From Nocardioides sp. Root190 (GTDB lineage Bacteria > Actinomycetota > Actinomycetes > Propionibacteriales > Nocardioidaceae), in the NCBI RefSeq assembly GCF_001428565.1, contig NZ_LMIA01000013.1:392739-456738 (forward strand): a stretch of DNA of 64,000 bases. Direction: 5' to 3'. The position numbers and the translations under genes are program-made. Within the stretch, counting starts at the first letter, position 1. Each line of letters begins with the position of its first letter. Shown here one piece after another: positions 5,733-40,929 of the stretch. Below the pieces are notes generated by a model, which worked only from the letters and a program-made list of their open reading frames with translations, was not told where the DNA came from and did not search any database.

Positions 5733-7190
5733 TCACGCCCCCGAGGTCCCCGCGGGCGACGCCACCGTGAAGGAGACCTTGCGAGCCTGGAGGTCGGCGC
5801 TGGCCAGCGTGGCCGTGACCTCGCCACCGAGCGGCAGCGGCCCTGCCGAGGTCACCGGCGCCTCGACGCCGACCTCCTCGATCAGGAGCACCCCGTTGGT
5901 CGCCTCGTCGTCACGCACGGAGGTCACCACGCCCTCGAACTGCTCCCCCACCCGGTCGGCGAGCAGGGCCGCCTCGATCAGGTCGAGGACCGCACGCTGG
6001 TAGGAACCGGCGCGGCGACCGGAGTCCTGCAGGGTCTTCGGCAGCCCGGGCAGCGCAGCGCGCACCCAGTCCGGCACGGGCTCACCGGCGCAGATCGCGA
6101 GGCACACCTCGCCGGCGTACCGGTCGCCCAGGCGGCGCAGCGGCGCCGTCACGTGGGCGTACTCCGCCGCGATCGCCGAGTGCATCGTCTGCTCGGGCAG
6201 CTCGCCGTCGAAGGCGGCGTACCCGCTCCCCCGGAGCAGTCGGGTGCACGCGACCACCATCGCCTGGTGCTGCGAGCGGGACGGGTCGAGCGAGCGGATG
6301 AATCCGGCGTAGTCGAGGTCGGCGGGCCAGTCGATCCGCAGGCCCTTGGCGACCCGGCGCAGTCGCTCCACGTCACGCGGGTCGGCGGGCGGCAACGTCC
6401 GCAGCAGGCCGACCTTCGCCCCGACCATCAGCGACGCGGCGCCGATGCCGGTGAGGAGCGAGATCTGGGCGTTCCACTGCTCGACCGGAAGCTGCTCGCG
6501 GAAGACCAGGTGGAGGCTGCCGTCGCTCTCCTCGATCTCCTGCTCCGGCAGGGGGAGCGAGATGCCGCCACGGGCCGTCTCCTGCGCCTCGCGGAGCAGG
6601 CCGACCTCCTTGAGCAGGGAGAGCACGTCGTCCGCGGTGCCGTCGTCGAGTGCCGCCTGCGCCTCGACGTAGGACCACCGCCGGGTCGACCTGACGAGTG
6701 CGCGCTCGACGTGCACGTCGGTGCACGAGCCCTCGGCGTCGACGGCGAGGGTCCACAGCAGCGAGGGGCAGACCTGGTCGGGCAGCAACGAGGCGGCGCC
6801 CTCCGACAACGCGGGCGGGTGCAGCGGGATCCGGCTGCTGGCGCCGTACAAGGTCTCGCCCCGGCGGTTGGCCTCGAGGTCGATCGGGTCGCCCGCCGTC
6901 ACGAACGCGGCGACGTCGGCGATCGCGTAGTGGACGACGAAACCGTCGCCCGCGCGCTCGATGTGCACCGCCTGGTCGAGGTCCATCGAGCCGGCCGGGT
7001 CGATGGTGACGAACGGCAGGTCGGTGCGGTCCAGCTCGGGGAGCACGACGGCCGCTGCGGCCTTCTCGGCGGCGGCGGTCACCTCGGCGGAGAACTCTCC
7101 GGGGAGCTCCAGCTCCTGCGCGATCGCCCGGAACCCCTCCTGGAGCGTCGGGGAGCTCACCTTGACCCGGACCACGAGGTTGCTCGGCAT
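5733..7190 (-). CDS. RNB-domain ribonuclease (RNase II/R family)
   Basis: A 485-residue exoribonuclease. The RNB catalytic segment TIDPAGSMDLDQAVHI (about residues 62-77) carries the conserved metal-binding aspartates; HYAIADVAAFV, RRGETLY and IPLHPPALSEGAASLLP follow in the order seen in the family. HSAIAAEYAHVTAPLRRLGDRY corresponds to the C-terminal RNB motif. It lacks obvious N-terminal cold-shock domains and has a short C-terminal beta-rich region, as in other actinobacterial RNB proteins. Expected role: processive 3'-5' degradation of RNA in the cytoplasm. ATG 7190 was chosen because the protein then starts MPSNLVVRVKV. cobU follows immediately. Confidence 0.88.
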   Translation of the reverse strand: MPSNLVVRVKVSSPTLQEGFRAIAQELELPGEFSAEVTAAAEKAAAAVVLPELDRTDLPFVTIDPAGSMDLDQAVHIERAGDGFVVHYAIADVAAFVTAGDPIDLEANRRGETLYGASSRIPLHPPALSEGAASLLPDQVCPSLLWTLAVDAEGSCTDVHVERALVRSTRRWSYVEAQAALDDGTADDVLSLLKEVGLLREAQETARGGISLPLPEQEIEESDGSLHLVFREQLPVEQWNAQISLLTGIGAASLMVGAKVGLLRTLPPADPRDVERLRRVAKGLRIDWPADLDYAGFIRSLDPSRSQHQAMVVACTRLLRGSGYAAFDGELPEQTMHSAIAAEYAHVTAPLRRLGDRYAGEVCLAICAGEPVPDWVRAALPGLPKTLQDSGRRAGSYQRAVLDLIEAALLADRVGEQFEGVVTSVRDDEATNGVLLIEEVGVEAPVTSAGPLPLGGEVTATLASADLQARKVSFTVASPAGTSGA

Positions 7191-29850: not shown

Positions 29851-30632
29851 CAGCAGGCCCCCGCAGCAGGACCGCGCAACAGGAACAGGTCCATCACCCA
29901 GCCGGCTTCGGCCTTCGCCGCTGCCCGGGCCTCCACGATCTCGCCGACCACGGACCCGACCGGTCCGGTGACCAGTCGCTCCCCCACGCCGCCGAGGTTC
30001 GCGCCCCACCAGATCGTCCAGTCCTCGAAGCCGTCGAGGTCCACCCCGCCGGTGAGCATCACGACCAGGTTGCGCTGTCCACCGGCGACGTCGTCGCGCA
30101 GGCGGCGGGCCGTGGTGACGTGCACCGGCTGCCCGACGTCGTGCAGCACGATGCCGTGCCGGGCGGCGAGCACCTGCGGGGCACTGATGCCGGGCAGGAC
30201 GTCGATGTCGTCGGACAGCTCGCGCACGATCCGGATGGTTCCGTCGTACAACGACGGGTCGCCCCACACGAGGAATGCGCAGGTTCCGCCGCGGGCCTCG
30301 AGCACCTCGCGGTAGGCGGCGAGCCGGGCGGCGTACCAGTCCACGACCGCGCCTTCGTAGCCCGCCCGGTCCAGACCCGGCGAGCGATCCCGCTCGGGGT
30401 CGCGGACCACGACGAGCTCGACGCCGTGGGCGTCCGCCACTGCCTGACGTACGGCGAGGAGCGGGTCCTCCTCGCTCTTCTGGACGGCCAGCGCGTAGTC
30501 GCACCCGGCCAGTGCCGCGGCGACCTCCGGGGTGACGTGCTGGGGGCCCATGCCGAAGCCCAGGACCCTGACCCTCGCAGCAGACCGGCCGGACGGCACG
30601 GATCGCACGGACGGCACGGAGGCCTCAGGCAC
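29850..30632 (-). CDS. cobF: Precorrin-6A synthase (deacetylating)
   Basis: A 260-residue tetrapyrrole methylase that methylates C-1 with loss of acetate, specific to the aerobic pathway. Recognisable blocks: VRVLGFGMGPQHVTPEVAAAL, FLVWGDPSLYDGTIRIV, VLPGISAPQVLAARH and VMLTGGVDLDGFEDW. GTG 30632 overlaps the cobN end by 8 bp. The first 20 or so residues (VPEASVPSVRSVPSGRSAAR) are low-complexity and may not be translated if an internal GTG near VRVLGFG is used. The stop overlaps the ferredoxin ATG by 1 bp. Confidence 0.92.
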   Translation of the reverse strand: MPEASVPSVRSVPSGRSAARVRVLGFGMGPQHVTPEVAAALAGCDYALAVQKSEEDPLLAVRQAVADAHGVELVVVRDPERDRSPGLDRAGYEGAVVDWYAARLAAYREVLEARGGTCAFLVWGDPSLYDGTIRIVRELSDDIDVLPGISAPQVLAARHGIVLHDVGQPVHVTTARRLRDDVAGGQRNLVVMLTGGVDLDGFEDWTIWWGANLGGVGERLVTGPVGSVVGEIVEARAAAKAEAGWVMDLFLLRGPAAGAC

Positions 30633-33600
30633 CGGCGGAGTCCTCGAGGTCACCCTCGACCTCGAGGTAGGCCGCCTGCAGCGCCGCGAGCACCTCGGGA
30701 TCGGGCGACTCCCACAGGCCGCGGTCCTTGGCCTCGTGCAGCCGCTCGACGATGCTGCGCAGCGCCCAGGGGTTGGACGTGCGCAGGAACGCCTGGTTGG
30801 TCTCGTCGAGCACGTAGGACTTCGCCAGCGACTCGTACATCCAGTCGTGGACGACACCGGCGGTCGCGTCGAAGCCAAAGAGGTAGTCGACCGTCGCCGC
30901 CAGCTCGAAGGCGCCCTTGTAGCCGTGGCGCTGCATGGCACCGATCCAGCGCGGGTTGACCACACGGGCACGGAACACCCGGTTGGTCTCCTCCTGCAGC
31001 GTGCGCGTGCGCACCGCGTCCGGCGAGGTCGAGTCGCCGACGTACGCCTTCGGGTCGGAGCCGGTCAGCGCACGGATCGTGGCGACCATCCCGCCGTGGT
31101 ACTGGAAGTAGTCGTCACTGTCGGCGATGTCGTGCTCGCGGGTGTCGATGTTCTTGGCCGCGATCTTGATCCGTCGGTAGTTGGCGCGCATGTCGTCTGC
31201 GGCGGGTACGCCGTCGAGGTCGCGGCCGTAGGCGAAGCCGCCCCAGGCGGTGTAGACCTCGGCGAGGTCGGCGTCGTCGCGCCAGGTGCCGGACTCGACG
31301 GCCTGGAGGATGCCGGCGCCGTACGACCCCGGCTTGGAGCCGAAGATCCGCGTCGTCGCCCGACGCTCGTCGCCGTGCTCGGCGACATCGGCCTGCGAGT
31401 GCGCGCGCACGAAGTTCTTCTCGAGCGGCTCGTCGAGCTCGGCGACCATCCGTACGGCGTCGTCGAGCATCGCCACCACGTGCGGGAACGCGTCCCGGAA
31501 GAAGCCGGAGATCCGCACCGTCACGTCGATGCGCGGACGACCGAGCTCCTCGAGCTCGATCACGGTCAGCGTGTGCACCCGCTTCGAGGCCTCGTCCCAC
31601 TCGGGACGCACGCCGATCAGGGCCAGCACCTCGGCGATGTCGTCGCCGGAGGTGCGCATCGCGGAGGTGCCCCAGACCGACAGGCCCACCGACTCCGGAT
31701 AGGTGCCCTCGTCGTCGAGGTAGCGCTGGATGAGCGAGTCGGCCATCGCCTGACCGGTCTGCCACGCCAGGCGCGAGGGGACCGCGCGCGGGTCGACGGT
31801 GTAGAAGTTGCGCCCGGTCGGGAGCACGTTGACCAGACCACGCAGCGGGGATCCCGAGGGACCCGCCGGGACGAAGCCGCCAGCCAGGGCATGCAGGGTG
31901 TGGTCGAGCTCGTCAGTGGTGCGTGCCAGACGCGGCACCACCTCGGTGGCAGCAAAGTCCAGCACCTGGCGGACCACCGGGTCGGCGTGCAGGTCCTCGA
32001 CGCGCGCCGGGTCCCAGCCCGACTTCTCCATCGCCTCGATCAGCTCGCGGGCCTCGGCCTCGACCCGGTCGACCTCCGGGGTCGGGGCGTCGGGCACGAG
32101 ACCGAGCGCGGACCGCAGGCCCGGGAGTGCGTGGGACTGACCGCCCCAGACCTGGGAGGCCCGCAGGATCGCGAGCACGAGGTTGACCCGCGCCTCGCCG
32201 TCGGGCGCCTGCCCGAGGATGTGCAGTCCGTCGCGGATCTGGACGTCCTTGATCTCGCACAGCCAGCCGTCGACGTGCAGCAGGAAGTCGTCGAAGTCGT
32301 CGTCCTCGGGACGCTCCTCCAGACCGAGGTCGCGGTGCAGCTCCGCGGCCCGCATCAGCGCCCAGATCTCGCCGCGGATGGCGGCCAGCTTGGCCGGGTC
32401 CATCGCCGAGATCTTGTCGTAGTCCTCCAGCAGGCCCTCGAGGCGCGCGATGTCGCCGTACGCCTCCGCGCGTGCCATCGGCGGGATCAGGTGGTCGATG
32501 ATCGTCGCGTGGGCGCGGCGCTTGGCCTGCGCGCCCTCGCCGGGGTCGTTGACGAGGAACGGGTAGATCAGCGGCATGCTGCCGATCGCGGCGTCCGTGC
32601 CGCAGGACGCCGACAGTGCGGCGTTCTTGCCGGGCAGCCACTCCATCGAGCCGTGCTTGCCCAGGTGGACCACCGCGTGGGCGCCGAAGCCGTGCTGCAC
32701 CCAGCGGTACGCCGCCAGGTAGTGGTGCGACGGCGCGAGGTCGGGGTCGTGGTAGATCGCGACGGGGTTCTCCCCGAAGCCGCGGGGCGGCTGGATCATC
32801 AGCACGATGTTGCCGGCGCGCAGCGTCGCCAGCACGATCTCGTTGTCGTCGTTGACGAAGAGGGTGCCGGGCGACTCGCCCCAGGCCTCGACCATGTCGC
32901 CGCGCAGGTCGGCCGGGATGTCCGCGGTCCACGCGTCGTAGTCGGCCTTGCTGATCCGGACGTGCGCGTCGCTGAGCTGGACCGAGGTCAGCCATTCCTC
33001 GTCCTGGCCACCGGCCGCGATCAGGGAGTGGATCAGCGTGTCGCCGGCCACGGTGTCGTCCTCGAGGTCGAGGACCCCGAAGCCGTCGCCGACGTCGTAG
33101 CCCGCGTCGCGCAGGCGGCGCAGCATCCGCACGGCCGACACCGGGGTGTCGAGGCCGACGGCGTTGCCGATGCGGGAGTGCTTGGTCGGGTAGGCGCTGA
33201 GCATCAGCGCGATCTTCTTGTCCGCGTTGGGGACCGAGCGCAGCCGGGCGTAGTTGACCGCGAGGCCGGCCACCCGGGCGCTGCGCTCCGCGTCGGCGAC
33301 GTACGACGGCAGGCCGGCCGGGTCGAGCTCCTTGAACGAGAACGGCACGGTGCTGATCCGCCCGTCGAACTCGGGGATCGCCACCTGGTTGGCGTAGTCG
33401 ATGGGTGTGACGCCCTCGTCGGACGCCTCCCAGTCCGCACGGCTGCTGGTGAGGCACAGGCCCTGCAGGACGGGGATGTCGAGGGCGGCGATGCGCTCCA
33501 CGTCCCACGTCTCGTCCTCGCCACCGGCGCTGACCGCGGCGGGTGTGCTGCCTCCGGCAGCGAGCACCGTGACGACGAGGGCGTCGAGATCGCCCAGCGC

Positions 33601-34206
33601 CACGAAGAGGTCGTCCGGCGCCGCGCGCAGCGACCCGGCGTAGATCGGCACACCGACGGCGTCACCAGTGGCGTCGATGGCGTCGCAGAGGGCGTGGACG
33701 AACGAGGTGTTCCCGCTCGCCTGGTGCGCCCGGTAGAACAGCACGCCGACGCGCGATGCCCCGGGGTCCGCCTGGGCCGGCCGCTCGAGGATCCCCCACG
33801 CGGGGATCACCTCCGGCGGCTCGAAGCCCTCGCCGGTCAACAGCACCGTGTCGGAGAGGAAGCGGTGGAGCTGCTCGAGGTTGCGGGGACCGCCCTCGGC
33901 CAGGTAGCGGTGCGCCTCGGCAGCGAGGCCGACCGGGACGGTCGACATCTCCATCAGCTCGGCGCTCGGCGTCTGCTCGCCGCCGAGCACGACCATGGGC
34001 TTCCCGGTCGCGCGGATCCGCTCGAAGCCGGTGCACAGGTCCTGGGGGCCGCCGAGGATGCGTGCGACCACGAGGTCGGCTGCCTCGATCGCGGCCGCCA
34101 TGTCGGTGTGCCCGGGACGGCCGGGGTTGGCCCAGGTGTAGTCGGCGCCGCTCGACCGTGCGGAGAGCAGGTCGGTGTCGGACGTGGAGAGCAGTGCGAT
34201 GCGCAT
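30625..34206 (-). CDS. cobN: Cobaltochelatase subunit CobN
   Basis: A 1,193-residue large chelatase subunit, the normal size. It inserts cobalt into hydrogenobyrinic acid a,c-diamide using the AAA+/VWA partner at 16.7 kb. It begins MRIALLSTSDTDLLSARSS; central blocks include QPPRGFGENPVAIYHDPDLA, HLGKHGSMEWLPGKNAALS and GRNFYTVDPRAVPS, all CobN signatures. The C-terminal region (RIFGSKPGSYGAGI, DDYFQYHGGMVATIRALTG, NPRWIGAMQRHGYKGAFE) is complete. It is preceded by a cobalamin riboswitch and GGAGGAATCGCGCC before the ATG. It is first in the cobN-cobF-fdx-cobQ-cobK operon. Confidence 0.96.
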   Translation of the reverse strand: MRIALLSTSDTDLLSARSSGADYTWANPGRPGHTDMAAAIEAADLVVARILGGPQDLCTGFERIRATGKPMVVLGGEQTPSAELMEMSTVPVGLAAEAHRYLAEGGPRNLEQLHRFLSDTVLLTGEGFEPPEVIPAWGILERPAQADPGASRVGVLFYRAHQASGNTSFVHALCDAIDATGDAVGVPIYAGSLRAAPDDLFVALGDLDALVVTVLAAGGSTPAAVSAGGEDETWDVERIAALDIPVLQGLCLTSSRADWEASDEGVTPIDYANQVAIPEFDGRISTVPFSFKELDPAGLPSYVADAERSARVAGLAVNYARLRSVPNADKKIALMLSAYPTKHSRIGNAVGLDTPVSAVRMLRRLRDAGYDVGDGFGVLDLEDDTVAGDTLIHSLIAAGGQDEEWLTSVQLSDAHVRISKADYDAWTADIPADLRGDMVEAWGESPGTLFVNDDNEIVLATLRAGNIVLMIQPPRGFGENPVAIYHDPDLAPSHHYLAAYRWVQHGFGAHAVVHLGKHGSMEWLPGKNAALSASCGTDAAIGSMPLIYPFLVNDPGEGAQAKRRAHATIIDHLIPPMARAEAYGDIARLEGLLEDYDKISAMDPAKLAAIRGEIWALMRAAELHRDLGLEERPEDDDFDDFLLHVDGWLCEIKDVQIRDGLHILGQAPDGEARVNLVLAILRASQVWGGQSHALPGLRSALGLVPDAPTPEVDRVEAEARELIEAMEKSGWDPARVEDLHADPVVRQVLDFAATEVVPRLARTTDELDHTLHALAGGFVPAGPSGSPLRGLVNVLPTGRNFYTVDPRAVPSRLAWQTGQAMADSLIQRYLDDEGTYPESVGLSVWGTSAMRTSGDDIAEVLALIGVRPEWDEASKRVHTLTVIELEELGRPRIDVTVRISGFFRDAFPHVVAMLDDAVRMVAELDEPLEKNFVRAHSQADVAEHGDERRATTRIFGSKPGSYGAGILQAVESGTWRDDADLAEVYTAWGGFAYGRDLDGVPAADDMRANYRRIKIAAKNIDTREHDIADSDDYFQYHGGMVATIRALTGSDPKAYVGDSTSPDAVRTRTLQEETNRVFRARVVNPRWIGAMQRHGYKGAFELAATVDYLFGFDATAGVVHDWMYESLAKSYVLDETNQAFLRTSNPWALRSIVERLHEAKDRGLWESPDPEVLAALQAAYLEVEGDLEDSAGA

Positions 34207-36540: not shown

Positions 36541-36560
36541 CGATGAGAGTCCTCTCATCG
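36541..36560. promoter_or_regulatory. 20-bp palindrome, candidate response-regulator site (copy 1)
   Basis: Perfect arms CGATGAGAG (36541-36549) and CTCTCATCG (36552-36560) around TC. It lies 44 bp before the first gene of the small protein/histidine kinase/response regulator operon. A near-identical site with the same 2-bp spacer is at 40523-40542. Confidence 0.65.
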
Positions 36561-36603
36561 ACCTCTCACCCCCCACCCATCGTCGGGCAGGATGATCCGG
36601 GTC

Positions 36604-36939
36604 ATGGGTCCGCTCTGGAAGACGTTGCTGCCGTTCGGCCTGCTGCTGGCCGCTGTCGGCTTCATCGTCGGCGCCGTCGTCGCGAGCGGTACGGGGGAGC
36701 CGCCCGCGCGGCGCCCCGTCGACATGAGCGTCGTGCCGGGGTCGGGGACTCCCTCGACGCAGGTCTCGCCGACGCCCTCCCCCACCGCCCCGGCCAACCG
36801 CCCCAGCCGGACGCCGAGCGCGGAGGTGCCCGTGGTCACGCCCCGGCCGGGCGGAGCCGGACGCGACGACGATGACGACGACCGGGACGACCGGGACGAT
36901 GACGACGACCGGGACGAGCGCGACGACGATGACGACTGA
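36604..36939 (+). CDS. Small membrane-anchored protein with Asp/Arg-rich tail
   Basis: A 111-residue protein with one N-terminal hydrophobic helix (about residues 6-30, LLPFGLLLAAVGFIVGAVVA). A Pro/Ser/Thr-rich stalk follows (about 40-80), then a tail made almost only of Asp with regularly spaced Arg (last 26 residues). No known domain. The highly acidic tail suggests cation binding or charge interaction outside the membrane. It is the first gene of the two-component operon and overlaps the kinase start. An upstream ATG at 36592 would add four residues. The role in signalling is an inference from position. Confidence 0.7.
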   Translation: MGPLWKTLLPFGLLLAAVGFIVGAVVASGTGEPPARRPVDMSVVPGSGTPSTQVSPTPSPTAPANRPSRTPSAEVPVVTPRPGGAGRDDDDDDRDDRDDDDDRDERDDDDD

Positions 36940-38362
36940 GCGGTCCCGCCCCGGGCTCTCGGTCCGGATCCGGATCACCGCCGCCGTCGCCCTGCTCGTC
37001 TCGATCGCGCTGGCCGGAGCCGGCGTGATCGTCCACTGGGTCGAGAGCGGCGCCATCGTCGAGGACACCCAGCGCGAGGTCGAGCAGGAGCTCGACGAGT
37101 TCGTCGCCCTCCAGCGCTCCGGCGACTTCACCTCCATCCCCGATCTCCTCGAGGGCTTCCTCGAGCGCAACGTCCCCGACGACGACGAGCTCCTGGTCGG
37201 CTGGGTGGAGGACGGGCCGGCCTTCCAGTTCCCCCGCGACCCGCTCGTCGAGGACGCAGAGTTCCAGGAGGCGGCCGCGACGCTCGTCGCCTCCGGAGGT
37301 ACGACGTACCTCGACACCGCCGGCGGCGAGGTCCGGATCACGGCCCAGCCGGTCCGCCGCGACACGGAGTCCGGTGCGCTGCTGGTCGTCACCTACCTCG
37401 CCGAGGACCGCGACGAGCTGCTGCGCACCATGCGGACCTACGCCCTGGTCGCGCTCCTGTCCGCCGTGCTGGTGACCGGGACGGCAGCGTGGCTCTCCGG
37501 GCGCCTGCTGCGCCCGCTGCGCACGCTGCGGGTCGCCGCCGACGGCATCGGGGCCACCGACCTCGGACGCCGTCTGCCGGCGACCGGGAACGACGACATC
37601 ACCGCCCTCACCCACACCATCAACGGCATGCTCGACCGCCTGGAGCAGGCCTTCGCCGGCCAGCGGGAGTTCCTCGACGACGCCGGCCACGAGCTGCGGA
37701 CACCGCTCACCGTCCTGCGCGGCCACCTCGAGCTGCTCGACGTCGCCAGCCCCTCCGAGGTCGCCGAGACCCGCGCTCTGCTGCTCGACGAGGTCGACCG
37801 GATGGCCCGGCTGGTCGGCGACCTGATCCTGCTCGCCAAGAGCGACCGACCCGACTTCCTCACCCTCGACGACGTCGACCCGTCCGACCTCCTCACCACG
37901 GCCATCGGCAAGGCCCGCGGACTGGGCGAGCGTCAGTGGGCGCTCGAGCTGCCTGCCCCCGATGCCGTCGACGGGCTGCCACCGAGCGTGGTGATGGACG
38001 GACAGCGGATGACCCAGGCCCTGCTCGCCCTCGCCGACAACGCCGTCAAGCACACCGGCACCGGCGACCGGATCGCGTTCGGTGCGGCCCTCCACGGCCC
38101 GCTGCTGCGCTGCTGGGTCCACGACGACGGCGCCGGGGTCGCCCCCGCGGACCAGGAGCGGATCTTCGGCCGCTTCGGTCGCGCCGCAGTCCCGCCCGGC
38201 GACGAGGGCTTCGGACTGGGTCTGTCCATCGTCGGCGCCATCGCGCACGCCCATGGAGGCACGGCGTACGTCGACCCGCACACCCGCGCCGGCGCCCGCT
38301 TCGTGCTCGACGTACCCGCCGTCCTGACCGCCGCCGAACCCACCCACGACGGAAGGCTGTAG
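36929..38362 (+). CDS. Two-component sensor histidine kinase
   Basis: A 477-residue OmpR-class kinase. Transmembrane helix 1 is about residues 16-38, an extracytoplasmic sensor region about 39-168, helix 2 about 169-189, then a HAMP domain. The HisKA phosphoacceptor is in FLDDAGHELRTPLTVLRGH (His254). The ATPase domain has ALADNAVKHTGTGDRI (N box), HDDGAGVAP and GFGLGLSIVGAIAHAHGG (G boxes). ATG 36929 overlaps the small acidic protein by 11 bp. Signal unknown. Confidence 0.93.
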   Translation: MTTERSRPGLSVRIRITAAVALLVSIALAGAGVIVHWVESGAIVEDTQREVEQELDEFVALQRSGDFTSIPDLLEGFLERNVPDDDELLVGWVEDGPAFQFPRDPLVEDAEFQEAAATLVASGGTTYLDTAGGEVRITAQPVRRDTESGALLVVTYLAEDRDELLRTMRTYALVALLSAVLVTGTAAWLSGRLLRPLRTLRVAADGIGATDLGRRLPATGNDDITALTHTINGMLDRLEQAFAGQREFLDDAGHELRTPLTVLRGHLELLDVASPSEVAETRALLLDEVDRMARLVGDLILLAKSDRPDFLTLDDVDPSDLLTTAIGKARGLGERQWALELPAPDAVDGLPPSVVMDGQRMTQALLALADNAVKHTGTGDRIAFGAALHGPLLRCWVHDDGAGVAPADQERIFGRFGRAAVPPGDEGFGLGLSIVGAIAHAHGGTAYVDPHTRAGARFVLDVPAVLTAAEPTHDGRL

Positions 38363-38364
38363 CG

Positions 38365-39036
38365 ATGGCCCGGATCCTGATCGTCGAGGACGAGCAGCGC
38401 ATCGCCTCGTTCCTCGCCAAGGGCCTGCGCGCCGAAGGCCACCAGACCACGGTCGCGGCCGACGGCCGGACCGGCCTGGACCATGCGCTCAGCGGCGAGT
38501 TCGACCTGCTGGTGCTCGACATCGGACTGCCCGTCCTGGACGGGTTCGCGCTCCTGGACCAGCTGCGCTCCCAGGGCTCCCGGATGCCCGTCATCGTGCT
38601 CACCGCCCGGGACTCGGTGGCCGACACCGTCAGCGCGCTGGAGGGCGGCGCGGACGACTACATGCCCAAGCCGTTCCGGTTCGCCGAGCTGAACGCCCGC
38701 GTCAAGCTCCGCCTGCGCCAGCTCTCCGGCTCCGGGGACGCAGGTCCCGTGGGCAGCCTCGAGGCCGGCGGCGTGCACCTGGACCTGCGCACCCGCCGCG
38801 CCACCGTCTCCGGCCGGGAGGTCGAGCTCTCCGCCCGGGAGTTCGCCCTGGCCGAGATCTTCCTGCGCAACGCCGGACAGGTCCTCTCCCGCGAACAGCT
38901 CCTCGACCACGTCTGGGGCCTCGACTTCGACCCCGGCTCCAATGTCGTCGACGTCTACGTCGGCTACCTGCGCCGCAAGATCGGCGCCGGCGCCATCTCC
39001 ACCGTGCGCGGGATGGGCTACCGGCTCGACCGCTGA
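38365..39036 (+). CDS. OmpR-family response regulator
   Basis: A 223-residue regulator. The receiver domain has phosphoacceptor Asp52 (LLVLDIGLPVLDG), with acidic residues VEDE near the N-terminus and the conserved lysine in MPKPFRF. The C-terminal winged helix ends LSREQLLDHVWGLDFDPGSN, VVDVYVGYLRRKIG and TVRGMGYRL. It follows the kinase by 2 bp and is its obvious partner. The 20-bp palindromes at 36541 and 40523 are its likely targets. Confidence 0.95.
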   Translation: MARILIVEDEQRIASFLAKGLRAEGHQTTVAADGRTGLDHALSGEFDLLVLDIGLPVLDGFALLDQLRSQGSRMPVIVLTARDSVADTVSALEGGADDYMPKPFRFAELNARVKLRLRQLSGSGDAGPVGSLEAGGVHLDLRTRRATVSGREVELSAREFALAEIFLRNAGQVLSREQLLDHVWGLDFDPGSNVVDVYVGYLRRKIGAGAISTVRGMGYRLDR

Positions 39037-39042
39037 CCCCGC

Positions 39043-39073
39043 CCTCCCGCCGAGTTGTCGGCGAGTCGGGAGG
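39043..39073. terminator. Possible bidirectional terminator hairpin
   Basis: Arms CCTCCCG (39043-39049) and CGGGAGG (39067-39073), with an inner CCGA/TCGG pair, lie between the convergent response regulator and kinase genes. There is no T-run, so termination is only plausible. Confidence 0.4.
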
Positions 39074-39082
39074 AGGGGGAGG

Positions 39083-39967
39083 TCAGCCCTTCCAGTTGAG
39101 GGTCGGGGCCGGCAGTGCCGCCAGCTCCGGCTCGAGCGCCTCGGCCACCTCGCGCGGGAGCGGGCGGTCGGCCGGGTCGGGCTCGAGCATCGCGTGCACC
39201 AGCTTCGACACGGCGGAGGGGACGTCCTCGGGCAGCTCGGCCGGGGCGTCACGCAGCTGCGGGAACCGGGCGACGGGCTCGCGCGCGTCGGGGTCCCCCG
39301 CCGCGAACGGTCGGCGCCCCCCGATGGCGTGGAACAGCGTCGCACCCAGGCCCCAGACGTCGCTGGCGTAGCCGGGGACGCCGAACGGGCCCGGCGAGGC
39401 CTGCTCGGGTGCCATGTAGGCGTCGGTACCGATCAGGCCGTCGATCTCGGCCGCCCGCTCGGCCTGACGGGCGACGGACAGGTCGATCAGCCGGGCCGGG
39501 GAGCCCATGATCACATTGCTGGGCTTGATGTCGAGGTGGCACACGTCGGCGTGCCTGAAGAAGTGCAGAGCCGAGGCGATGTCGACCGCGAGCGGGAGGT
39601 ACTGCTGCGGAGAGAGCCGCCCGTGCCTCCGGATCAACCGGGACAGGCTGGGACCCTCCACGTGCTCGAGCACCAGGTGCGGGCGGGGGCCGGCGTCGTC
39701 GTACCTCAGCCCGCGTACGACGACCGGGTGGTGCGCCACGTCCAGTGCCGTCGCCTCGCGCACCATGCCACGGACCGTGTGCTCGTCGTCGGCCTCGTCG
39801 GGGCGCACGACCTTCACCACGACCGGGCCGAGGGTGATCTCGTCGAACGCCAGCCACGCCTCGTAGGCGGACCCACCCCCGAGCGACCGGATCGCGGTCA
39901 GCTCGGGGGCGATCGCGTCACCCTCGGCGAAGCCCCAGGTGGACAGCTCCCTGTCCTGCTCGTTCAC
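39083..39967 (-). CDS. Soluble serine/threonine protein kinase (DLS variant)
   Basis: A 294-residue Hanks-type kinase with no transmembrane helix and no sensor domain. Glycine loop LGGGSAYEAW (29-38), ATP-binding lysine in VVVKVV (Lys52), catalytic loop CHLDIKPSN (Asp146, Asn151), activation segment GTDAYMAPEQ. The metal-binding DFG motif reads DLS (Asp162), a change that keeps the essential aspartate. The start GTG 39967 lies 4 bp after the stop of the Asp/Arg-rich protein gene, so they form one operon. Substrates are unknown; the two-component proteins next door are candidates. Confidence 0.88.
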   Translation of the reverse strand: MNEQDRELSTWGFAEGDAIAPELTAIRSLGGGSAYEAWLAFDEITLGPVVVKVVRPDEADDEHTVRGMVREATALDVAHHPVVVRGLRYDDAGPRPHLVLEHVEGPSLSRLIRRHGRLSPQQYLPLAVDIASALHFFRHADVCHLDIKPSNVIMGSPARLIDLSVARQAERAAEIDGLIGTDAYMAPEQASPGPFGVPGYASDVWGLGATLFHAIGGRRPFAAGDPDAREPVARFPQLRDAPAELPEDVPSAVSKLVHAMLEPDPADRPLPREVAEALEPELAALPAPTLNWKG

Positions 39968-39971
39968 CCGG

Positions 39972-40439
39972 TCACCGGCGGGTGTTGTTGCGGCTGCGGT
40001 CGTTGGTGCGGTTGGCCGACCAGTCCCGCGCCTTCTTGCCGGGGCCGTCGGTCGTCCAGTCGCGGACCTTGCGACCCGAGCGGCTGTCGTCGCGGCCGCT
40101 GCGGGCGCCCGTGCGCGAACGGTCGGCGCGCGTGTTGCGCGAGACACGCGAGCGGGTGTTGGTCGCACGCGTGTTGGTGTCACGCGTGTTGGTCGCCGCG
40201 GCGCGGGCCTTGACGGACCCCGTCACGACCACCTTGTTGTCGGCCAGGTCGTCGTCCAGGTCGTCGTCCAGGTCGTCGTCCTCGGTGACCAGGACGATGT
40301 CGGGGGTGTCCTCCTCGCGCTTCACGGCCAGGTCCTGCGTGCCGGCGTCGGACGGCCAGGCAAGCAGGCTGACCGTCAGACCGGACGCCACCAGGCCGAC
40401 CAGACCGGTTGCCGCGACGACCACGGGCTTCTTCTTCAT
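39972..40439 (-). CDS. Secreted or membrane-anchored Asp/Arg-rich protein
   Basis: A 155-residue protein. An N-terminal signal or anchor (MKKKPVVVAATGLVGLVASGLTVSLLAWP style hydrophobic segment, about residues 5-28) precedes an acidic repeat (DDDL repeated three times, near residue 55). An Arg/Asn/Thr-rich region follows with repeats of NTRDT/NTRAT, then a basic Arg/Ser/Asp C-terminus. No known domain. A GGAGAAG ribosome binding site precedes ATG 40439. It is the first gene of the operon with the kinase. The mixed-charge composition resembles the protein at 36604. Confidence 0.72.
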   Translation of the reverse strand: MKKKPVVVAATGLVGLVASGLTVSLLAWPSDAGTQDLAVKREEDTPDIVLVTEDDDLDDDLDDDLADNKVVVTGSVKARAAATNTRDTNTRATNTRSRVSRNTRADRSRTGARSGRDDSRSGRKVRDWTTDGPGKKARDWSANRTNDRSRNNTRR

Positions 40440-40522
40440 GACTTCTCCTCCATCGGTGCGGACGTCGACTCCTGTCGACACCGAGGACTCTCCCGAGCGC
40501 GCGTGAGGCCACCATGAACCGA

Positions 40523-40542
40523 GGATGAGAGCCCCCTCATCC
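40523..40542. promoter_or_regulatory. 20-bp palindrome, candidate response-regulator site (copy 2)
   Basis: Arms GGATGAGAG (40523-40531) and CCCTCATCC (40534-40542) with spacer CC; one mismatch breaks the symmetry. It lies between the divergent Asp/Arg-rich protein gene and the small membrane protein gene, 16 bp before the latter start. Shares GATGAGAG-NN-CnCTCATC with the site at 36541. Confidence 0.62.
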
Positions 40543-40557
40543 ACTACCGTGCCGACC

Positions 40558-40812
40558 ATGTACGTCGAGCTGGTCAGCGATCGTCTCCACCACCGCCTCC
40601 GTCGCGTCCTGATCGCCTGGCTGGCGAGTATCGCGACGTGCGGCTACCTGTTCCCCTGGGCCGTGGCCACCACCCGTGGGAAGGCCGACGCCGACGCGAT
40701 CGGCTTCCTCAACCTCGCGCTGGGCTGGACCGTCGTGGGCTGGCTCCTCGCCCTGGCCCTGGCCTGTCGCCGCCACGGCATCGCCGGGCTGCGGGTCACC
40801 GGACCGGACTGA
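40558..40812 (+). CDS. Superinfection-immunity-like small membrane protein
   Basis: An 84-residue protein with two helices. The block GYLFPWAVATTRGKADADAI followed by GFLNLALGWTVVGWLLALALA matches the Imm_superinfect family pattern (FLPW...R....A...LNL.LGWT..GW..AL.WA). The family is named after a phage T4 protein that blocks DNA entry, but chromosomal bacterial members are widespread and mostly of unknown role. ATG 40558 lies right behind the palindrome, so it may belong to the two-component regulon. Confidence 0.72.
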   Translation: MYVELVSDRLHHRLRRVLIAWLASIATCGYLFPWAVATTRGKADADAIGFLNLALGWTVVGWLLALALACRRHGIAGLRVTGPD

Positions 40813-40857
40813 GCGAGCACGCAGGCCACCGGCACAGGAGGCCGGAGCAGGAACAGG

Positions 40858-40929
40858 TGGGCGCAGAGGGGATCGAACCCCCGACCACTTCGTTGTAAGC
40901 GAAGGGCTCTACCGCTGAGCTATACGCCC
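40858..40929 (-). tRNA. tRNA-Val (anticodon UAC)
   Basis: On the minus strand the 72-nt sequence starts GGGCGTATAGCTCAGCGGTA and ends GTTCGATCCCCTCTGCGCCC followed by A. Acceptor stem GGGCGTA pairs with TGCGCCC; the D arm has AGCTCAGCGGTAGAGC; the anticodon stem CTTCG/CGAAG holds the loop CTTACAA, giving anticodon TAC (valine). The T loop is TTCGATC. CCA is not encoded. Confidence 0.96.

Follow-up and report, generated by a model that had tools for sequence, protein, structure and literature searches.

A probable autoregulated two-component envelope regulon with directional promoter arrays in Nocardioides

What holds together the six genes of a small signalling island in Nocardioides sp. Root190? 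The island lies in a 64,000-nucleotide stretch of contig NZ_LMIA01000013.1 (hereafter the window), with an acyl-CoA synthetase gene on one side and a tRNA-Val gene on the other, and encodes a membrane protein with an Asp-rich tail, a sensor histidine kinase (HK), an OmpR-type response regulator (RR), a Ser/Thr protein kinase, an exported Asp/Arg-rich protein and a small PF14373 membrane protein. A preliminary description of this DNA had noticed two near-identical palindromes bracketing the set and proposed one regulon in which the RR controls mixed-charge envelope proteins and a Ser/Thr kinase. Comparison with related loci shows that the RR, the HK and the poly-Asp-tailed protein form, as far as gene order and promoter sequence can tell, one operon (the core operon), and that the same directional array lies on the operon of the exported protein and the kinase (the kinase operon). 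Overall, an autoregulated two-component envelope regulon, some parts of which are worded below as predictions, is the likely answer.

Directional arrays at two convergent operons

Both palindromes are present, with a length of 18 bp rather than the 20 bp first described: GATGAGAG-TC-CTCTCATC at 36542..36559, with perfect 8-bp arms, and GATGAGAG-CC-CCCTCATC at 40524..40541, with seven of eight arm pairs. The exact pattern gave three strand matches at two places in the window, against 0.00 expected from 100 dinucleotide shuffles, and these are the only places in the 5.0-Mb genome that match without a mismatch. When three mismatches were allowed, the five matches in the window were not unusual against the 2.42 expected. 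We fetched 39 same-genus and 80 named loci and aligned promoters on the palindrome, 69 from core operons and 58 from kinase operons. In the alignment CTCA is conserved 11 bp and again 22 bp past the right arm, and 12 bp further than the last CTCA there is a −10-like element with an A and a T whose positions are constant. The true element is therefore TGAG-N6-CTCA-N7-CTCA-N7-CTCA, a one-directional array of 36 bp with four TGAG/CTCA half-sites, and the bracketing palindromes, real as they are, are each only its upstream part. Tandem half-sites with a period of about 11 bp at a promoter are what an OmpR/PhoB-type regulator calls for.

The array pattern matched exactly twice in the window (0.00 expected in shuffles). 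Array 1 (36544..36579, plus strand; 1 mismatch of 20) consists of TGAG, CTCA, CTCA and CCCA half-sites with an 11-bp period and reads into the core operon, whereas array 2 (40504..40539, minus strand; 2 mismatches of 20) reads into the convergent kinase operon. The −10-like GATGAT at 36591..36596 on the plus strand lies 12 bp past the last half-site of array 1 and carries the conserved alignment columns A50 and T54; the same columns, conserved in the 58 kinase-operon promoters, place the probable −10-like element of site 2, GAGAGT, at 40487..40492 on the minus strand. The last half-site would thus occupy the position expected of a −35 box, which fits class II activation. Because of GATGAT, ATG 36604 is a more probable start of the Asp-tail gene than 36592, and its position suggests a leaderless transcript beginning near that ATG.

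Direction was counted in 76 distinct loci (75 from Nocardioidaceae and one from Phycicoccus, out of 89 given), with at most four mismatches allowed. A correctly oriented array was found at 64 of 73 core promoters and 61 of 61 kinase-operon promoters, and at no locus was a wrongly directed array the sole one. Where the kinase operon is displaced by 1.6–4.7 kb (L045, L048, L053 and L071), a palindrome-like site still stands upstream of it. Direction also removes two neighbours from the list of targets. Palindrome 2 ends 16 bp before the start codon of the PF14373 gene, which had been drawn into the regulon as a superinfection-immunity-like protein, but array 2 points away from this gene, and it adjoins in only 5 of 76 loci. 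The divergent acyl-CoA synthetase gene was rejected on array direction and on breaks in synteny (for example in L061, L063, L067, L072 and L073).

A genome-wide motif search and neighbourhood conservation had been proposed as checks, and both came out in favour of a single regulon that tracks the RR. Among 98 genus genomes, 65 encode an ortholog of the RR (E below 1e-80). Fifty-three of these 65, and none of the 33 genomes without the RR, contain the strict palindrome (Fisher 2e-16). An array with at most three mismatches is present in all 65 RR-bearing genomes, and at least two copies in 59, compared with two or more in 0 of 33 RR-less genomes (Fisher 2.5e-20), six of which have a single array, each with three mismatches. 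A reversed-pattern control gave 4 matches in the 98 genomes against 180 for the array pattern, five of the 180 being one unrelated tandem repeat in genome G070. The kinase ortholog was found in 55 of 65 RR-bearing genomes and in 0 of 33 lacking the RR. The preliminary description had held that finding its two halves unlinked in relatives would speak against it: this is so in part, the kinase half being missing from 10 of 65 RR-bearing genomes and from the loci examined outside Nocardioidaceae, yet it never occurs without the RR. In one kinase-less Nocardioides metagenome-assembled genome the second array stands upstream of a gene for an exported His/Asp-rich protein (L134, 9018-9421). We conclude that the two operons very probably constitute one autoregulated regulon with directional arrays.

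Proteins of the island

The six genes proved to be as first described, with the HK start corrected to 36929. The Asp-tail protein (36604..36939, plus strand; a longer reading starts at 36592) has one N-terminal transmembrane stretch, a Pro-rich linker and an Asp/Arg-rich C-terminal tail. The start of the HK gene (36929..38362, plus strand) overlaps its stop codon, and the RR gene (38365..39036, plus strand) follows. On the minus strand, the exported disordered Asp/Arg/Ser/Thr/Asn-rich protein with S/T-R repeats (39972..40439) is encoded 4 bp before the cytosolic Ser/Thr kinase (39083..39967; Pfam Pkinase, 118.1 bits). Neither the Asp-tail protein nor the exported protein matched a Pfam or NCBIfam family. 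The small membrane protein at 40558..40812 (plus strand), which we place outside the regulon, matches PF14373 (Imm_superinfect) with 46.2 bits against a gathering cut-off of 27.9, a family label that says nothing on phage immunity. Just beyond the island lies the tRNA-Val gene (anticodon tac; 40856-40929, minus strand), and a 1193-amino-acid open reading frame at 30625-34206 encodes a putative CobN-type chelatase subunit. Here and below, ‘exported’ denotes an N-terminal hydrophobic stretch recognized by hydropathy and by eye rather than by a signal-peptide predictor, and genes outside the window were modelled with our own codon-score caller rather than a published gene finder.

The RR combines a receiver domain with a winged-helix output domain (Pfam Response_reg and Trans_reg_C) and the HK has HAMP, HisKA and HATPase_c domains, all above Pfam gathering cut-offs. 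An AlphaFold2 model of the HK had a mean pLDDT (predicted local distance difference test) of 87.9, and 87.9 for the sensor alone. HprS (core Z 21.1, root mean square deviation (rmsd) 3.1, 241 residues aligned) and CusS (Z 20.6, rmsd 2.1, 208 aligned) were at or near the top of its fold matches, tied with WalK and others. The extracellular sensor domain alone is Cache/PDC-like, matching WalK (Z 11.5, rmsd 3.0, 119 aligned), CusS (8.8) and PhoQ (8.8) at 7–12% identity; a PDB search found no related sequence for it at E below 0.3, and it is acidic, with 29 Asp/Glu against 7 Lys/Arg.

The catalytic K, E, D, N and D of the kinase are identical in 62 of 63 alignment rows, the remaining row being gapped there; the window kinase has HLD in place of HRD and DLS in place of DFG, with the catalytic residues intact. 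It scored 116.2 bits against a cut-off of 450 for the PknB/Stk1 PASTA model NF033483, the match covering only the kinase domain, and stayed below the cut-offs of the LanL/LanKC models (93.9 against 650 and 33 against 575 bits). Its exported partner belongs to a family of 61 distinct relatives (45 after thinning), in whose C-terminal part Ser and Thr make up 26% of residues, compared with 10.6% in six proteins of the window. The dipeptides SR (182 observed against 60 expected) and TR (215 against 100) are in excess and RT is depleted (71 against 101); shuffle z-scores for these dipeptides are uncorrected for relatedness within the family.

Targets in other genomes

We examined 20 further array sites from genus genomes. 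At thirteen of them the gene of a small exported protein follows after 24–70 bp. These thirteen include the third site of the Root190 genome itself (C1:529183), which precedes an exported 181-residue protein without a Pfam family, and a recurrent exported family of 104–148 residues with the motif ..DDGR.EVE.., which stands behind arrays in L261, L262, L264, L267, L268, L271, L272 and L275, with no Pfam family in the two members tested. Four of the 20 sites precede ABC exporters. Together with a Marmoricola locus (L211, 6000-8987) there are five such cassettes (L263, 4001-6889; L265, 1011-4036; L273, 4001-6942; L274, 1111-4036), and in 5/5 the array is followed by a 45–55-residue RS/TR-repeat peptide (MARS...), an ABC exporter gene and a Ser/Thr kinase gene; Pfam ABC and Pkinase domains were confirmed in L263 and L274.

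Other targets are more varied. A full array precedes a PepSY lipoprotein with Asp runs in another Marmoricola locus (L212, 5323-6002), and in Kribbella (L220, 8551-10056) an array past the RR gene is followed by a DUF4956 gene and a gene with a VTC domain (polyphosphate polymerase-type). In L218 an array is present, with no small exported reading frame found after it. No metal-efflux gene was seen among the targets looked at, which are not an exhaustive list and include one MFS gene behind a weak array (L209).

In the Root190 genome a TerC gene has a complete palindrome in front of it (L036, 5003). This palindrome lacks the array and is not conserved at any of the 29 other terC loci of the genus (best 6–9 of 12), and terC was rejected as a target. 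Two Geodermatophilus terC loci (L207 and L208, both at 6002) also carry full palindromes without an array. Neither L036 nor L207 contained a riboswitch or other Rfam match. LacI operators of the form TGAGAGCGCTCTCA with a CG centre (L210, L213), among many CG-centred matches, can be mistaken for the palindrome and have no direct repeats; the palindromes of L215 and L216 likewise have no arrays.

The core extends to Geodermatophilus, Blastococcus, Rhodococcus, Pseudonocardia and others outside Nocardioidaceae. Of 34 loci (L152-L185), 23 lay outside the family and had long enough flanks; in these an array was found at the core operon in 19/23 and at the convergent gene downstream of the RR in 17/23, against 2 of 2,014 window-strands for arbitrary 350-bp windows of the same loci. 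An Asp-tailed first gene is present in Geodermatophilus, Blastococcus, Pseudonocardia, Rhodococcus, Saccharomonospora and Actinomycetospora. The convergent genes mostly encode small exported low-complexity proteins, Asp-rich in Rhodococcus and with TPDD repeats in Geodermatophilus and Blastococcus. The Nocardioidaceae-type kinase was not found in 31 of 31 loci from outside the family, six of them shorter than 15 kb. An APH-like gene with its own array was detected instead in L214, L219, L221, L222, L223, L172 and L184 (the site in L181 is weak), adjoining an exported Ser/Thr/Ala/Pro/Asn-rich protein that also has its own array. The APH assignment was made by Pfam for three proteins, two of which reached the cut-off and one of which (L172) did not, and by eye for the others.

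Mechanism, alternatives and known systems

In the mechanism that we propose, a stimulus would lead the HK to phosphorylate the RR, dimers of which would fill the four half-sites, one inverted and three direct with an 11-bp period. Bound RR would recruit RNA polymerase, the last half-sites covering the −35 region of the promoter, and both operons would be raised, giving positive feedback as well as output. Positive control by the phosphorylated RR is our prediction, and we think it quite likely. Less certain are the two ends of the pathway: the Cache-like acidic sensor and its Asp-tailed operon partner may respond to cations or to cationic compounds at the membrane surface, the output may be a coat of small exported disordered proteins, charged or Ser/Thr-rich, and the dedicated kinase may act on the envelope side.

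Several observations weigh against this account. Nine of 73 core promoters have no array at up to four mismatches, the strict palindrome is missing from 12 of the 65 genomes that have the RR, and three of the 20 further sites (L259, L260 and L266) are followed by neither an exported protein nor an ABC cassette. The composition of the exported proteins differs greatly between clades, and charge itself may therefore not be the point. The sensing step is also doubtful, since charge and fold are its whole basis; we think it possible, but less likely than not, that cations or cationic compounds are the signal.

Could the arrays have arisen without the RR? Chance, or mere synteny of two short nearby palindromes in close relatives, is extremely improbable: the relaxed palindrome count is unremarkable and the neighbouring acyl-CoA synthetase genes are syntenic too, but exact-palindrome and array counts lie far above shuffles, and the sites are kept after rearrangement and in other taxonomic orders. 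The arrays might instead belong to another regulator, such as an OmpR-type paralog of the RR or a repressor of the MarR/LacI type, with the linked RR a bystander. The tail of E-values in the RR search reveals many OmpR paralogs per genome, and relatives contain similar LacI-type operators centred on CG (L210 and L213). We nevertheless find this very unlikely, as genomes with at least two arrays are nested perfectly within those bearing the RR, an array occupies the autoregulatory position upstream of the RR operon, and LacI operators lack the directional 11-bp half-sites.

The role of the kinase is more contested. It could act as feedback on the pathway itself, that is, on the RR, the HK or cell-wall enzymes, and not on its exported partner, a possibility to which we give a real though less than even chance. 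Ser/Thr kinases act on two-component regulators in actinobacteria, and the kinase resides in the cytosol, from which its exported partner would be expected to depart. Less easily reconciled with feedback are the position of the kinase gene 4 bp after that of the exported protein, the second regulon kinase behind an RS/TR-repeat peptide and ABC exporter in all five cassettes, and the existence of the core pathway without the kinase in other genera. An unlikely alternative in our view makes the low-complexity proteins O-glycosylated wall proteins, with the kinase-fold enzymes phosphorylating sugars or small molecules. The partner is rich in Ser, Thr, Ala, Pro and Asn in the genera with APH-type enzymes (L214, L219 and L221-L223), a composition resembling that of O-mannosylated actinobacterial proteins, and Pfam APH includes small-molecule kinases; in Nocardioidaceae, however, the enzyme is of the protein-kinase type and the partner is Arg/Asp-rich, its Ser and Thr mostly followed by Arg.

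That the kinase acts on its exported partner is speculative, and we rate it as rather improbable. In its boldest form, which we would put no higher, the co-regulated kinases would phosphorylate Ser and Thr of the adjoining small disordered proteins, which would then be exported and cover the envelope with phosphorylated polyampholytes; this would be a bacterial analogue of the phosphorylation of SR proteins or protamines. The type of kinase would have been exchanged, Pkinase in Nocardioidaceae and APH-like elsewhere, with the pairing to an exported Ser/Thr-rich protein kept, and in the second cassette an RS/TR-repeat peptide would be coupled to an ABC exporter and to a kinase. Class V lanthipeptide enzymes CaoK and LxmK offer a partial precedent: according to the portion of the report available to us, an APH-like enzyme phosphorylates Ser/Thr of a peptide made from an adjacent gene (PMC9486802). 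The APH-like or Ser/Thr kinases here similarly adjoin Ser/Thr-rich exported proteins, their putative substrates. The two cases differ in that no lyase or cyclase was noticed beside the kinase in the gene models, for which no family-model search was made, and in that the partner keeps its Ser/Thr and is without Cys in the sequences viewed.

The autoregulated regulon resembles several known systems in part. For both RR and HK the best NCBIfam subfamily is cztR_silR_copR / cztS_silS_copS, the group of CusRS and HprRS, but the scores fall below the cut-offs of these models (TIGR01387, 201.5 against 279.2 bits for the RR; TIGR01386, 164.1 against 292.55 bits for the HK), and a copper or metal-efflux system was rejected on this ground. 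The E. coli CusR/HprR box, ATGACA-4-TGTCAT, has the same palindromic geometry; the core here differs in its extra Asp-tailed membrane protein and in the absence of metal-efflux genes from the targets looked at. An operon-encoded small accessory protein also accompanies CpxAR (CpxP). GraX, in the part of its description that we could consult, is made in the HK/RR operon of GraXRS. The accessory protein here is distinguished from both by its single transmembrane stretch, poly-Asp tail and lack of a Pfam domain.

Boxes of Streptomyces PhoP and of PolR are direct repeats of the half-site GTTCAC with an 11-nucleotide period, according to the section of the source seen (PMC6754071); the period is the same here, but the half-site is CTCA(T/C) and the first is inverted. 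CutRS, CssRS and MprAB are, like the present system, envelope-directed two-component systems of actinobacteria. The motifs given in the accessible parts of the respective papers, TAWATAAA for CutR (PMC12802291) and TKTTAAGAAM for C. glutamicum MprA (PMC12113857), differ from ours, and those parts of the CutRS and MprAB descriptions mention neither an Asp-tailed partner nor a kinase. The combination, whose parts are individually of known kinds, is undescribed in the literature searched, most subscription papers being outside its reach, in agreement with the preliminary description, which knew of no system of this composition.

With these comparisons, what had been an anonymous gene cluster becomes a defined actinobacterial signalling pathway that can be tested and whose promoter code can be read; it occurs in 65 of the 98 genus genomes sampled. 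They assign many small exported low-complexity proteins without a Pfam family to a regulon, and hint at what poly-Asp membrane tails might do next to sensor kinases. The pairs of kinase and exported partner are offered for the direct study of whether exported disordered proteins are phosphorylated in bacteria.

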